37,691 nucleotides of DNA from IMG/VR virus record IMGVR_UViG_3300025316_000035, positions 1 to 37,691 of that record; one strand, 5' to 3'. Shown here in pieces: positions 5,310-23,555 of the stretch (positions are counted from its first letter, which is position 1; each line of letters opens with the position of its first letter). The position numbers and the translations under genes were made by a program. Below the pieces are notes generated by a model, which saw only the letters and a program-made list of their open reading frames with translations, was not told the origin of the DNA and ran no database searches. The stretch is from a virus.

Positions 5310-8300
5310 AGTAGATCGACTGGAACTTGAGATCGTCATTAACAACGATCAAAGCCGCAAGCAGCTGCGGGAACTCAACGAAGAAGCCTTACGTATTCAA
5401 AGCTCTATGAAAGGCATGGTAAAGGGCAGTGAAGAGTATGTACAGGCTTCTCAGAAACTCAACACCGTCAAGAATCAGATGGACGGTGTATATGAGAAGA
5501 TCGGCATAACCGGTTTGTCCCTGAAAGAACTCGTCGGGCGCCAGCGCGAGTTCAATATGATGCTGAACAATATGAATCCCTCAATGCCTCAGTATAAGAC
5601 CATGAAGGAAACATTGGATCAGATCAATGCGAGGATTAAGGAATTGAAGGGTAATGCCCAAAGTACACAGGTAGCATTAGGAGAAGGAGGATTCGCAGGG
5701 GCATTTACCAAACTGACCGAATGGGCCGTTAAGTTCGGTGCTGCAGCTCTTGCAGCATTTTCATTTGTTGCCTTGAAAAATTATGTTAAGGAAGGAATTG
5801 AATCGGCAATAAAACTGAGGGATACTGAAAAAATTATGCTTGACCTCCTGGATGGTGAGAAATCAAGGCAGAAAGAACTTATTGCACTGGCAAAAGAGAA
5901 AGCCGGTACAACGATGTTTGGCAGGCAAGAGATTGAAGAAGCTGAAAAATTTCTATTGATTCAGGGAAGATCACAGGAACAGATAAAAAGAACCATGCAA
6001 GCGGCAATGGATCTGAGTGCAGTTACAGGAAATGAATTGAAAAATTCAATCGAAGATCTGGATGGAACAATGGAAGGCAGAATGGGTAAGAGTTTGGGTA
6101 AACTGGAAAAGGATTTCAAGAATTTATCAAAGGAACAACTATACAATGGTGATGCCATTGAAATTGTTCGTAAGAAATATGCTGGCATTGCCGAAGGTGA
6201 AATGAACACAATCGAAGGAAAGGTCAACCTTCTTGAAAAATCATGGGGCGCATTGCAGCGAACCATTGGTGATTTTGCCATTGGTTCCGGAGGTATCTTC
6301 AATGCGGCCATTGAAGGAGCGACTTCATTTTTAGGTACCATTAAAAAAATTCTGGAAGTACCAATGTCTCAAAAAATGCAGGAAGAAAGTGATAAAGTAA
6401 ACATGCTTGCTTCATCACTAACCGATTTGAATCTTCCTGCAGCAGATCGTAATAAACTGTATGATGAACTCAATAAAATTGCTCCGGAAGTTTTGAAAGG
6501 AATCGATAAAGAGGCCATTTCATATACTACATTGACGAAGAATCTGCAGGAATATAATGATATGATGGTTAATAAGATAATCCTTCAAAAAGAGGATGAA
6601 AAGCTTGATGGTGTCAATGCTACGTATGCTAAGGCAAGAAAGGCAAGAATCGATCAGGAAAACTATATCCGTCAGAAAGCTTATGATAATTGGGCAAGAT
6701 GGACGGTTGAGTCCAAAAACCAAAATGCAGCGAACCAGGCTGATACCAAAAAGCAGATTGAGGATCAACGTACAATTTTAAATAATTCCAATCTCACTTT
6801 TTCTCAGAAAATGAACCAGCTTGGGAAGACCTCCGGGGCCTATTGGGCGGCCAACAATATGTACCAAATGTTAGCTGAAACTGAGAAGAAAGCATTAGTG
6901 GCTCAGACCATGGCCATAAATAATAAAAAGAAGCTTATTTCTGATTTAGGTATTGATGTGAATGCCCTGGATAAAGCAGAAGAAGAAAAACGCAGAAAGT
7001 CAGAAGAAGAAAGTAAGAAAGAAAATCATCATCTGATCGAAAAAAACGATTTATTAAAACAAACAACTGCTGAACTGGAGAATTTAATAGCAGTAGGAAA
7101 GGTACAAGGGGCATCCGAAGAAGACAAAAAGAATGCTGATGCTGCAGAGAAGGAAATAAAGCGAAGGGAAAAACTAGGTGATACAGAAGCCCAGTACCAT
7201 GAAAAGTACAAATCATTCATGGAAGAAATCCATGGAATGGAGCTTGAAAATTATGCCGATCATCTTTCTCAAACCGAATCAGAAATAAAATCCATCAATG
7301 AAAAGTATGATATTGAGATTAAAAGGATTGAAGAATTTAAAGAAAAAAATAAAGATAAAATTAAACCAAAAGAGGTTAAGGAACTGGATGATCAGAAAGG
7401 TCAGTTGGAGATTACCCGCAATGCACAGACAAAGCAGGTTCTTGAACAAGTTGAAGTTCAGTTTGCTGAAAAGGTAAAGCAGATCCATGAGGCTTTACGA
7501 GTAGCCAGATTAAGCATCACTGACCGGGAAGTATATGAGATCAATCAGAAATATGATGCCCTTCAAAAGGAGATTCTTGATGCGATTGAATACCGATATC
7601 AGCAAGAGGTTAAAGAGGCGGGGGGAAACAAGGATAAGTTAGCTGCAGCAGAGAAAAACAAGGCTGATGCTATTTCTAAGATAGATTCTGACCTAAACAA
7701 GTTAAAACAGGCAAGGTCTCAGGAGACAGATAAAGCCTTGGCAAGCGGTGCTCAGCGATTTGAAGATGAGCTGAAAAATCTTAAATTAAAATCAGATCAA
7801 TCACTTGCAAAGGGGAAAGAGAAGATACAGCTCGAAATCAATGCCAAATACAAGAAACTCCTTGATGATAATGTAAACGATGAGAAGCGAACTGCGGAGA
7901 TCAAGGCGCAGATGGCCGACGAACAACGGCAAAAAGAACAGGAGGCAAATAAGGAACATTTCCAAAAGCTTGCCCAGGATGCGGAAGCCTTTGCCAATAC
8001 GGTTATGTCATCAGTTCAGGGCCTTGAAAGTGCGTGGTCAGCATATGAGAATGCTATCCTTGCCAAAGACCAGGCATCCAATGACAAGAAGAAAGCTGAG
8101 TTAAAGAAACGGCTGGATTCCGGGAAAATCACCCAGAAGCAATATGATGCTGAAATCTCGAAGATGGATCTGGAAATGGATGCCAAAAAGAAGAAGATTC
8201 AGCATGATCAGGCCAAGCGTGCTAAGGATATATCGCTCATGCAGGCGATCATCTCTACAGCTGCAGGTATAGTCCAGGCATTGGCAAATCCGGGGGGTAT

Positions 8301-12018: not shown

Positions 12019-12035
12019 GGAAAGATCCTTTCAAT

Positions 12036-12070
12036 AAAAAAGACCGTATTCATAACGGTCTTTTTTTTTA
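12036..12070 (+). terminator. Intrinsic terminator of the tail operon
   Basis: The stem AGACCGT (12041-12047) pairs with ACGGTCT (12055-12061) and extends through flanking A5 and T5. It is followed by a T run to 12069. It lies 17 bases after the stop of the last tail gene. Confidence 0.9.
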
Positions 12071-12080
12071 CATTTACAGC

Positions 12081-12197
12081 GTCGCATTCACAATCACAAA
12101 TCGGGTAAGGCCTGGACCTGGAAGAGTAGGGAGGAAGACCCTACACTTAAAACCCGGTAGCGGATTGTGAGTGCGACACCTTCCAGGTCCAATTTTT
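12081..12197 (+). ncRNA. Candidate structured RNA, possibly pseudoknotted (or folded integration-site DNA)
   Basis: Four complementary pairs are visible. P1: 12081-12095 with 12163-12177, 15 pairs with one G-U. P2: 12101-12106 with 12152-12157, 6 pairs with one G-U. P3: 12126-12131 with 12139-12144, 6 pairs, 7-base loop. P4: 12113-12124 with 12180-12191, 12 perfect pairs. P4 crosses P1, so the two form a pseudoknot or exclude each other. A T5 run at 12193-12197 follows P4 directly, as in a terminator, and a weak promoter-like TACATTTA (12069-12076) sits just before P1. It does not match any RNA family I know. Because the integrase gene lies next to it, a DNA role as an attachment or arm site is a real alternative. 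Confidence 0.55.
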
Positions 12198-12202
12198 ACA
12201 GC

Positions 12203-12454
12203 ATGTCGCAAGATCAATTTACTGAAATATTCTCATTGTTCAGGGAGAAATTCCCGCCGGTTGAAAATATTCAACAGGCGTCATTAACCTTGACGACTGA
12301 GGAAATTATTGAGACATTCCATTCGTTTAATCCCGATATGGAATTTCCCAGTACTTCCCTGTACAGTTTTATGAAAGCCCAGAGTTACGTATTTCTTCCG
12401 CAGGAGAAAAACGAGCGTATTGTCTTTTATTGGCTGATAGGGCAGAGAGGTTAG
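12203..12454 (+). CDS. Small hypothetical protein, convergent with integrase
   Basis: 83 residues from ATG 12203. A GTG at 12167 is possible but would lie inside the structured element. The sequence looks like a real small soluble protein: acidic helix at the start, then TLTTEEIIETFHSF, then a C-terminal KNERIVFYWLIGQRG. It converges on the integrase gene and overlaps its 3' end by 86 bases. Directly upstream lies the structured element at 12081-12197, which could control it. Function unknown. Confidence 0.45.
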   Translation: MSQDQFTEIFSLFREKFPPVENIQQASLTLTTEEIIETFHSFNPDMEFPSTSLYSFMKAQSYVFLPQEKNERIVFYWLIGQRG

Positions 12455-13562
12455 GAAACGACCTTGAAAGTTTCTCCGACGGGTGACGTCGGAATTTATC
12501 AACGTAAACCTGGGTCATATCCAGCGAGCTGTGACGAAGCTGCAGCTGCAGATCCCTCAGGTTTATTCCCGCCTCGATTGCCATACCTACCCCGGTATGT
12601 TTTAATGAGTAGATGTTTTTGTTTATCGCGTGCTTGTCGGCCCATGCTCTCCATCGGCCGGCAATGCGCGTGGGGGCGATCTCCACGGTCCCCGGCATCA
12701 GATCCTTTGAAAATGCATAACGGTCCTGGGATCCTTCAAAGGGCAATAATCGCAGTACCGGAACCAAGGCATCAGGGATCTGAACCGTCTCATGCTTTCT
12801 GTTTTTGGAAATGGTACCCGCCACCACGATAGTATTGTTGTAAAAGTTGAAGTTCCGGATCCTCATTCGAACAATCTCAGCCGGTCGAAGGAAGCAATAG
12901 AAAATCAAACATGCAACGGCGTATAATTCAAAATCCTCTTCCGGAAGTTTGTCCTGCACCCGGATCAATTCATCAACTGTAAAGCAGGTTATCTCCGGTT
13001 CCTCAATCGGTAGTTTTTCAATGCACATGAAAGGATTTGACAATATCCAGTCCCGTTTCATTAAAAAACTGAAGAAACAACGCATGTGCATCCGGCGGTA
13101 ATTGTAGGTCCGGTTCGATAGTTTCAATACCATCTTGGAATAATCCATGAACTGTTGGGCATGCATTTGGTTAAATTCACCAACGCTCAGGTGCTGGTAT
13201 TTCATCTTGAAAAGCCACTTTTCAAAGCTGTGTACCTGGTAGCGGTAAGTATAGAAAGAACGTTTACGAAGCGTTGTTTCCTTGAATTCAAGGACAAACT
13301 TCATCGCTTGGATGATATTTGTGTGCCTTTTTTCTGTGAAGGAAAATGGGTTCCAACCCGTCAGAAGCCTTTTATTGATCTTCGACATATGATCATTCGC
13401 CCACTGGCGGCGTGAAATCGCTGTCTTAAAACGGGAAGGAATATTGTCTTTGAACCGGGTATTTTTATTTGTTTCCGGATTCTTGTAGAAGAAGTAAACG
13501 TACCAATGTTGTGAAAGATCTCCTTTCACATCGTAAAGCCTTGATAATTTGAATTTTTCCAT
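12369..13562 (-). CDS. int: Tyrosine-type phage integrase
   Basis: 397 residues from ATG at 13562. The longer open frame to 13727 adds an unlikely N-terminus, and the A-rich leader before 13562 suits Bacteroidota. An N-terminal SAM-like DNA-binding part is followed by the catalytic domain. Visible active-site parts are Arg I in FLRPAEIVRM, Lys in SKNRKHE, YSLKHTG at the HxxR box (His replaced by Tyr, Arg by Lys, a form I associate with Bacteroidota integrases), His in LRHSSLDM and the nucleophile Tyr in TQVYVDKF. It inserts and excises the phage at the host attachment site and shows that the phage is temperate. It is transcribed leftward from the repressor side. Confidence 0.9.
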   Translation of the reverse strand: MEKFKLSRLYDVKGDLSQHWYVYFFYKNPETNKNTRFKDNIPSRFKTAISRRQWANDHMSKINKRLLTGWNPFSFTEKRHTNIIQAMKFVLEFKETTLRKRSFYTYRYQVHSFEKWLFKMKYQHLSVGEFNQMHAQQFMDYSKMVLKLSNRTYNYRRMHMRCFFSFLMKRDWILSNPFMCIEKLPIEEPEITCFTVDELIRVQDKLPEEDFELYAVACLIFYCFLRPAEIVRMRIRNFNFYNNTIVVAGTISKNRKHETVQIPDALVPVLRLLPFEGSQDRYAFSKDLMPGTVEIAPTRIAGRWRAWADKHAINKNIYSLKHTGVGMAIEAGINLRDLQLQLRHSSLDMTQVYVDKFRRHPSEKLSRSFPNLSALSANKRQYARFSPAEEIRNSGLS

Positions 13563-13677: not shown

Positions 13678-13805
13678 AAGTAGCGGGATCGAGACATTTT
13701 TGTTGTCAACCTGTTATTGGATATCAATTAGTTACGTTTTGGAATGTGCCCGGAAACGGGCTGTTTTCAATGCCGTGGCTCAACTTGTGGCCCAGAAAAA
13801 GGAGG

Positions 13806-16454: not shown

Positions 16455-16528
16455 TGCGCCGTGGAGAAGAGGCAACTCGGAGGGAGTCATAGCCCCTCAG
16501 ATCGCAGGTTCGAATCCTGCCGGCGCAA
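16455..16528 (+). tRNA. tRNA-like gene, CAU anticodon, unusual anticodon arm
   Basis: Acceptor TGCGCCG (16455-16461) pairs with CGGCGCA (16521-16527), 7 perfect pairs. The D arm is GAG/CTC with GG in the loop. The T arm GCAGG-TTCGAAT-CCTGC is canonical. CCA is not encoded. The anticodon arm is ambiguous. A 9-base loop closed by GAGGG/CCCTC gives a normal 5-base variable loop. A 7-base loop GTCATAG with U33 and A37 needs an A-C mismatch, an extra base near 26 and a 6-base variable loop. Either way CAU is the central triplet, so Met or Ile2 would be expected if it is functional. Confidence 0.7.
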
Positions 16529-16817
16529 CAACCCTTGACGATAGGGGGAATAATGGTTCTTTAAGGCGGTTAGGGATTGGGGATTCAGGGTCTGCGTACC
16601 TCTGCCCTGAATCAGAGACCTGGGAAATGTCACAGTTGTTCAATTTAGGTTTGGTTTATTGATCATCTGCCCCGGGTAAATACCTGCAAAGTGCGATGCC
16701 TTATTGAGCCACACCCGCTGAAGCGCGAAAACCCTGCAATGACACGCAGGTTGGCAGCCGGGAACAGACCGGCCCCCCATCGGGGGTTTATCAACCGACA
16801 AATACTAATACTGACCA
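16529..16817 (+). promoter_or_regulatory. Hairpin-rich leader between tRNA and primase gene
   Basis: 289 bases without an open frame. Visible hairpins are GATTCAGGG with CCCTGAATC (16582-16590 and 16605-16613), CCTGC with GCAGG (16733-16737 and 16746-16750), GCCGG with CCGGC (16757-16761 and 16769-16773), and a C-run/G-run stem (16773-16786) followed by TTT. This looks like an RNA leader with a weak terminator or attenuator before the primase gene. I could not derive one consistent fold and recognise no RNA family. Confidence 0.4.
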
Positions 16818-23521: not shown

Positions 23522-23555
23522 GTTCAGTTGTACGGAAATTTCCGTACAACTGAAC
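23522..23555. promoter_or_regulatory. Perfect 34-bp palindrome after the antirepressor-like gene
   Basis: Arms 23522-23538 and 23539-23555 are exactly complementary, with no spacer, centred on AAA/TTT. It contains TTGTACGG-AAATTT-CCGTACAA, the same core and spacing as the site inside the gene. It begins one base after the stop codon. No T run follows, so an operator is more likely than a terminator. Confidence 0.6.

Follow-up and report, generated by a model that had tools for sequence, protein, structure and literature searches.

Between the tail module and the integrase gene of the virus record IMGVR_UViG_3300025316_000035, analysed here over its whole length of 37,691 nt (the window), we found a conserved structured RNA directly preceding a gene for an 83-aa protein. 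The element combines nested helices with a crossing one, and its structure, its position and its co-occurrence with the gene are conserved in two further independent phages, L042 and the integrated prophage L072. We hold with moderate confidence that it is a conserved cis-acting two-state leader RNA (about 12081-12202) of this gene, the product of which is a predicted winged-helix protein; the switching and the direction of control are what we infer.

Features of the window (coordinates, strand, description):
12033..12069, +, intrinsic terminator of the upstream tail operon, directly before the element (inverted repeat AATAAAAAAGACCGT/ACGGTCTTTTTTTTT, terminator scan)
12069..12076, +, promoter-like -7 box TACATTTA (consensus TAnnTTTG), RNA start placed near 12081
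12081..12095, +, P1, 5' strand (4/10 core pairs changed on both sides in three phages, 0 broken)
12100..12106, +, P2, 5' strand (5/5 core pairs compensatory in the hand alignment)
12105..12110, +, P5, 5' strand, would lengthen P4 on its outer side in the alternative fold (proposed; shares two bases with P2)
12113..12124, +, P4, 5' strand, crosses P1 (4/9 core pairs changed on both sides)
12126..12144, +, P3 hairpin GTAGGG-AGGAAGA-CCCTAC, common to both alternative states (2/6 pairs compensatory)
12152..12158, +, P2, 3' strand (helix listing, core-pair comparison)
12163..12177, +, P1, 3' strand (12172-12178, TGCGACA, also complements the start-codon region 12204-12210, TGTCGCA)
12180..12191, +, P4, 3' strand (helix listing, core-pair comparison)
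12193..12197, +, T5 run after P4, possible terminator tail (T6 in L042, TTATTTATT in L072)
12194..12199, +, P5, 3' strand, proposed (shortly 5' of the start codon at 12203)
12203..12454, +, P0001, the 83-aa gene led by the element, predicted winged-helix protein (overlaps the integrase 3' end)
12369..13562, -, integrase, tyrosine recombinase (PF00589 E 5.5e-13, phrog_1 E 5.7e-35)
13680..13690, strand not assigned, putative attP core GTAGCGGGATC, resembling a tRNA 3' end and outside the element (compared with the tRNA-Met junction in L010 and L074)

Helices of the element

The helices were checked on the sequence and in an exhaustive helix listing. A preliminary description had placed P1 and P4 in pseudoknot order with P2 and P3 nested inside, and every one of these helices was recovered at the same positions. 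P1 has 15 pairs including one T-G, which is a mismatch in DNA and a wobble in the + strand RNA only, and P4 has 12 perfect pairs in crossing order relative to P1. The strands of P3 (12126-12131/12139-12144) have conserved flanks, AGUA and UACA. P5 is weak in the window (6 pairs, two of them G-U) and has 8 bp in L072. The T5 run described earlier as following P4 is present, but an A precedes TTTTT; the run is T5 in the window, T6 in L042 and only UUAUUUAUU in L072. The loop of the P4 hairpin measures 55 nt, and the terminator scan does not pick this hairpin up. At the ends of the element there is a near direct repeat (window 12074-12086 and 12195-12210, TTTACAGC-GTCGCA and TTTACAGCATGTCGCA), of which the relatives have only the GTCGC part.

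Relatives and extent of the family

In all three phages the element lies between a Bacteroidota-type -7 box and the start codon of the homolog of the 83-aa gene. We define the class-1 leader family here by nested P1/P2/P3, a crossing P4 and a location between the -7 box and the ATGTCGC of a P0001 homolog, a definition that takes in the window, L042 and L072. L042 (IMGVR_UViG_3300045970_001080) was reached by alignment of the integrase of L010, the second phage of the same MAG (P0001 homolog 44%, integrase 51% identical), and it carries an element of the same plan directly 5' of its P0001 homolog. L010 itself is without the element, and its integrase-proximal P0001 copy survives as a C-terminal relic only. 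Searching 43 genomes from the same family with the protein alignment turned up a prophage, L072/L074, on a 332-kb contig. A covariance model (R1) built from the window and L042 only scored L072 with 60.1 bits (E 1.2e-15) directly before its P0001 homolog, and because this locus had been found via the protein, the score is an independent test of the RNA.

Model searches of 393 genomes of the order (R1), 43 of the family and 395 of the class (R2), under stricter filters, gave no further class-1 member, and the family is therefore narrow as far as seen. Weak model matches in L054 and L077 lay inside coding genes and were rejected, as was a pattern match in L060 in which the P3 hairpin alone agreed. 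Viral contigs contained no exact DNA match of the region and yielded no useful matches to P0001 alone or the tail protein alone; blastn against phages and plasmids found no relatives of the element, and DNA similarity across 295 genomes of the order, with the matches judged collectively, was limited to short chance-like ones, except for G001. At the gathering cut-off, the Rfam 15 covariance models assigned the element to no family, the sole match being a host tRNA in L010, and permissive Rfam scans gave sub-threshold matches only. We classify the element as a new RNA family with a crossed plan as far as searched, whose general kind, phage leader or attenuator RNA, is known.

Covariation and chance expectation

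In a hand alignment of the three sequences, the 30 core pairs were paired in 90 of 90 cells. Fifteen pairs had changed on both sides (P1 4, P2 5, P3 2 and P4 4), none was broken, and there was one one-sided change, from U-G to U-A; none of 20,000 permutations equalled this pairing result. The homologs were thereby examined for the one-sided pairing breaks that the preliminary description had proposed to look for, and the outcome clearly favours structure. As the hand alignment was structure-fitted, the cleaner tests are the R1 score on L072 and the count in a fixed MAFFT alignment of the window and L042, which gave 9 compensatory pairs versus 4.6 expected and no one-sided changes (0/500 shuffles). 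In that alignment P4 was entered in the second bracket type, and P2 was off by one column and thus counted as unpaired. The crossing P4 is supported as well as P1, since compensatory pairs number four of nine and four of ten, respectively. What is conserved here is an RNA structure rather than a site for DNA recombination. Compensatory changes by themselves cannot distinguish mutually exclusive helices from a static pseudoknot.

The complementarity within the element had been judged to be far beyond chance, and chance is indeed rejected by both shuffles and homologs. The nested fold has an energy of -49.3 kcal/mol (z -4.5), equalled by 0 of 200 shuffles. A scan looked for crossing helix pairs, each helix 8 bp or longer and the second followed by a T-run. 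In it the window element scored 41, the highest among 70 loci, and dinucleotide shuffles (1.26 Mb of single strand) gave no score above 28. Real genomic sequence has a few lower-scoring, uninterpreted matches (L048, L065 and L068), so that scores of about 30 alone are not significant. In Bacteroides phage BT-TP2 (L065, 42835-42750, - strand), the integrase gene is followed by a terminator hairpin that a helix of 10 bp (GAAGCGGGAA/TTCCCGCTTC) crosses, and this may be another crossed-helix terminator, or chance. At L048 (849-755, - strand), in a Bacteroidota genome, crossed helices without a match in Rfam include a perfect 12-bp terminator-like stem (CCCCTCTCCTGA/TCAGGAGAGGGG) with CTTTTT.

Gene neighbourhood, putative promoter and attachment site

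The 37.7-kb record represents a tailed temperate phage of Bacteroidales with modules in the order tail genes (to 12018), P0001, integrase (- strand), regulators, primase, head genes and terminase, and a near-identical copy of the region is found on a Bacteroidales MAG contig (L002/L003, 99%). The gene order agrees with that of Cellulophaga phage Ingeline_1 (Duneviridae), in which the integrase directly adjoins the last tail gene with no gene between them. Since Ingeline_1 has nothing at this place, the element and P0001 occupy an accessory slot between tail module and integrase. Elsewhere in the window we noted a loopless perfect palindrome of 17+17 bp (23522-23555, GTTCAGTTGTACGGAAA/TTTCCGTACAACTGAAC) directly after an ORF.

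Counterparts of the -7 box are found in L042 (TATATTTG) and L072 (TATCTTTG) with the same spacing to P1 (about 4 nt), and all three boxes agree or nearly agree with TAnnTTTG, the -7 consensus of Bacteroidota promoters (PMC7366714). Because the box stands about 4 nt upstream of P1, the RNA should start at about P1, and we infer from the sequence that this promoter is used. No -33 box was recognised upstream of the element; in Flavobacterium johnsoniae, too, a -33 box could not be identified (PMC7366714). The tail-operon terminator lies just upstream of the element in the window and in L042. In the window only 5 nt separate the T-run from the ATG, and no other promoter is visible for the downstream gene. 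Given the upstream terminator, this short gap and the lack of another visible promoter, the gene at 12203 must be read through the element.

A folded recombination site used by the neighbouring integrase was among the earlier proposals, and prophage junctions were compared for the position of attP. The integrated prophage L074 (order tail, element, gene, integrase, tRNA-Met at 8227-8299) and L010 both have the integrase facing a host tRNA-Met. The junction is at the 3' end of this tRNA, some 140 bp past the start codon of int and on the side of int away from the element. The putative attP motif of the window is 1.5 kb from the element. With the junctions on the far side of the integrase, attP is outside the element, and we rejected the element as a folded attachment site. 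The phage also carries its own tRNA-Met (CAT) gene (window 16455-16529), and related integrases adjoin host tRNA-Met.

The downstream protein

Homologs of P0001 were found in L010, L042 (two copies), L071, L072 and L033. Searches of phages, Pfam, PHROGs and PADLOC gave no match to P0001, and there was no credible match among PDB sequences. AlphaFold2 gave a helix-strand-helix-helix-strand-strand order with a mean pLDDT of 86 from a shallow alignment (about 70 for the other four models), and this order is that of a predicted winged helix. Foldseek returned nothing significant (best E 0.056, viral VirE-like proteins), and we therefore restrict the claim for P0001 to winged-helix topology. The distant homolog in L033, which adjoins a tape-measure gene, has a sub-threshold match to DUF3874. 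P0001 is probably a nucleic-acid-binding protein.

A two-state model for the leader

Helix energies were calculated without pseudoknots. State 1, consisting of P1, P2 and P3 or its variant, was the energy minimum in all three phages, and enforcing P4 led to a second fold (state 2) in which P4 is prolonged by P5. The energies of states 1 and 2 were -49.4 versus -41.6 kcal/mol in the window (gap 7.8), -54.8 versus -41.1 in L042 (gap 13.7) and -49.9 versus -48.1 in L072 (gap 1.8). The strands of P5 are GUAAGG/UUUUAC in the window, GGUUU/AAACC in L042 and AAAGGCUU/AAGCCUUU in L072; the U-rich run lies within this helix or is enclosed by it, and the helix stops a few nucleotides short of the start codon. 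Beside P3, the 5' strand of P4/P5 has a strong rival partner in L042 (-23.2 kcal/mol) and L072 (-19.9 kcal/mol), and in the window the corresponding pairing is weak (-9.3 kcal/mol). Energies and rival partner strands fit an either/or switch. In the window and L042, where state 1 forms first and has an advantage of 8-14 kcal/mol, switching would need an additional factor.

In the proposed mechanism, P1, P2 and P3 would form first as the RNA emerges, trapping the P4-making strand inside and leaving the region 5' of the start codon open, and the gene would be read and translated. In state 2 the same segment would pair downstream, giving P4 prolonged outwards by P5 and still enclosing P3. A stable hairpin would thereby stand against the U-rich run near the start codon, and transcription might stop early, ribosome entry might be blocked, or both. 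Candidate triggers are the protein itself, a phage or host RNA, and transcription speed, among which autoregulation by P0001 via its own leader would be attractive. A two-state terminator switch for the gene at 12203 had already been suggested in the preliminary description, and of the readings offered there it has the best support. Owing to the degenerate U-run of L072, however, termination is less well founded than the role as a leader.

The start codon context ATGTCGC is present in all three phages and is complementary to the end of the P1 3' strand, over 7 bases in the window, 9 in L042 and 7 in L072. In a shuffled-start control this was equalled in 186 of 20,000 cases for the window and 11 of 20,000 for L042; the L072 figure is by inspection. 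This pairing, picked after seeing the data, might directly occlude the start codon once P1 has opened.

Alternative explanations

Both crossing helices are strictly kept, as they would also be in a static pseudoknot with P1 and P4 formed together. Under this tentative alternative, which we regard as possible though on balance improbable, the element would be a free, compact small RNA with its 3' end at the U-run. It would act in trans or bind a protein, in the manner of IsrK or of the immunity RNA of phage P4, and the gene would be expressed by read-through only. The -7 box directly 5' of P1 would start such an RNA and P4 with the U-run would form its 3' end, giving a compact RNA of 115 nt, and in this form the free RNA offered by the preliminary description is possible. 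There is also a documented precedent in IsrK of Gifsy-1, whose single prophage promoter yields an RNA that is terminated and acts in trans as well as an mRNA by read-through, with alternative structures (PMC4825925). However, the U-run is poor in L072, where the two states are moreover nearly equal in energy and their strands conflict, no target was identified, and by our own hand geometric estimate the linkers seem short for P1/P2 together with a 12-bp P4 without a bend. Because IsrK combines both, the leader switch and the small RNA could both hold.

The other readings are far less probable than the two-state leader. Adjacency to the integrase might suggest a DNA site, such as an attachment site in folded form, arm sites of the integrase or operators bound by the winged-helix protein, and symmetric protein sites could also acquire paired changes. 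We nevertheless find such a site extremely doubtful: attP is placed at the tRNA-Met end past the int start codon, the wobble pairs suit the + strand RNA alone, and operators do not look like a set of four helices, nested or crossing, with a hairpin loop that is conserved and a placement between promoter and ATG. The wobbles, P3 with its conserved flanks and this placement argue for RNA. In a locus resembling type III toxin-antitoxin systems, a pseudoknotted RNA antitoxin would neutralise the 83-aa protein. The order of promoter, pseudoknotted RNA, terminator-like stem and small gene is as in type III loci (PMC5086642), and the position in an accessory slot of a temperate phage would suit such a system. 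However, type III loci have a tandem repeat array followed by the terminator (PMC5086642), whereas the element is single copy in the window with no tandem repeats visible. P0001 shows no ToxN, CptN or TenpN homology (Pfam, PHROG, PADLOC) and is predicted to be a winged helix rather than a ToxN fold, and in L042 a P0001 homolog is third in an operon without this RNA. We rejected this reading on the missing repeats and the missing ToxN-like gene and consider it very unlikely. We likewise give very little credence to a ligand-binding riboswitch with P1/P2/P3 as aptamer and P4/P5 as expression platform. It would share the logic of an aptamer with an alternative terminator or RBS helix, and there are conserved stretches around P3 (AGUA...GGRAG...UACA), but Rfam has no match, few unpaired bases are strictly conserved across the three sequences, and the element is limited to one small phage gene family without a metabolic neighbour.

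Companion leaders in related phages

Two additional structured leaders, which we term class 2 and class 3, occupy the accessory slot in L010 and L042:
L042 7945-7868 and L010 4301-4220, -, class-3 leader (P1 GATGGTACC/GGTACCATC or GATAGCCC/GGGCTATC)
L010 5250-5160, L042 8860-8775 and L073 upstream of the MAKQQDC gene, -, class-2 leader (conserved TATATAGG-GAAATCCC stem, compensatory changes)

Class 3 consists of crossed helices and a T6-7 run before antirepressor genes, Bro-N in L010 and P22_AR_N in L042. Its P4 (AGCCTTGCC/GGCGGGGCT or GAGCGTTGCC/GGCAGCGCTC) crosses P1 and is followed by the T-run; the core is GCCnAGTAGGGG...ATCCCGAAnGGC, with a promoter-like TTGAC...TAATTTTG upstream. In class 3, 4 of 18 pairs are compensatory (31/500 shuffles). 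The sequence is unrelated to class 1, and the plan of P1 crossed by P4 with a U-run is in common. Class 2 is a long stem that ends at an AGGAG motif (TTAGGAG) just 5' of the first gene of a three-gene operon, the last gene of which is a P0001 homolog. Neither class had an Rfam match. A duplicated or relic P0001 C-terminus with the integrase 3' end flanks the class-2/class-3 cassette (L042 9090-9010 and 7110-7060, L010 3636-3553), and judging from its arrangement the cassette looks as if inserted via recombination at the int 3' end.

Post-transcriptional control is little studied in Bacteroidota, and still less in their phages. The class-3 leader in front of antirepressors is a hint that lysogeny functions of these phages could be under the control of RNA switches. 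As a speculation that we think unlikely to hold in full, class 1 and class 3 might form a lineage-specific family of dual sRNA/leader switches in Bacteroidota phages. Such RNAs would govern the lysogeny decision or immunity to superinfection, and the terminated form would act in trans on the read-through mRNA of its own locus. The class-1 RNA is compact, comparison lends its two crossing helices strong support, and it comes with a promoter and one exactly defined partner gene, so that the question of pseudoknot versus either/or switch is directly testable.

Comparison with known systems

Phage RNAs that lie 5' of regulatory genes and act by alternative pairing include c4 RNA of phages P1/P7 and the CI/seqA RNAs of phage P4. 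The element resembles c4 antisense RNA (RF01695) and phage P4 CI/seqA in being a phage RNA upstream of its gene that would act by alternative pairing. Unlike c4, it has no Rfam match, pairs within the leader and is not followed by an antirepressor in the window. Both the c4 and the phage P4 systems are discussed as alternative-pairing phage RNAs in PMC4825925.

With the type III RNAs ToxI, CptI and TenpI (PMC5086642) the element shares helices in pseudoknot order followed by a terminator-like stem and a small gene, but it is single copy, larger and without a ToxN-like toxin. Pseudoknotted attenuators and riboswitches such as crcB/fluoride (RF01734) have mutually exclusive helices, as proposed for the element, and a U-run adjoining the start codon; the match to RF01734, however, had 14.3 bits against a cut-off of 34 and lay on the other strand and elsewhere, and none of this kind was above chance. 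STAXI are repeated pseudoknots close to integrase and single-strand-binding protein genes (PMC2864571). The pseudoknot close to an integrase gene is in common, whereas STAXI is tandemly repeated and enterobacterial and the element is single copy with no Rfam match.

From IsrK of the Salmonella prophage Gifsy-1 (PMC4825925), to which the Rfam comparison revealed no homology, the element differs in its crossed P1xP4 plan, its Bacteroidota host and its winged-helix downstream gene. Like IsrK, it is a prophage leader with its own, here putative, promoter and a small downstream ORF, in which alternative structures would open or close the downstream start region with partial termination, and, as in the IsrK system, a similar leader stands before antirepressor genes in the sister phages.
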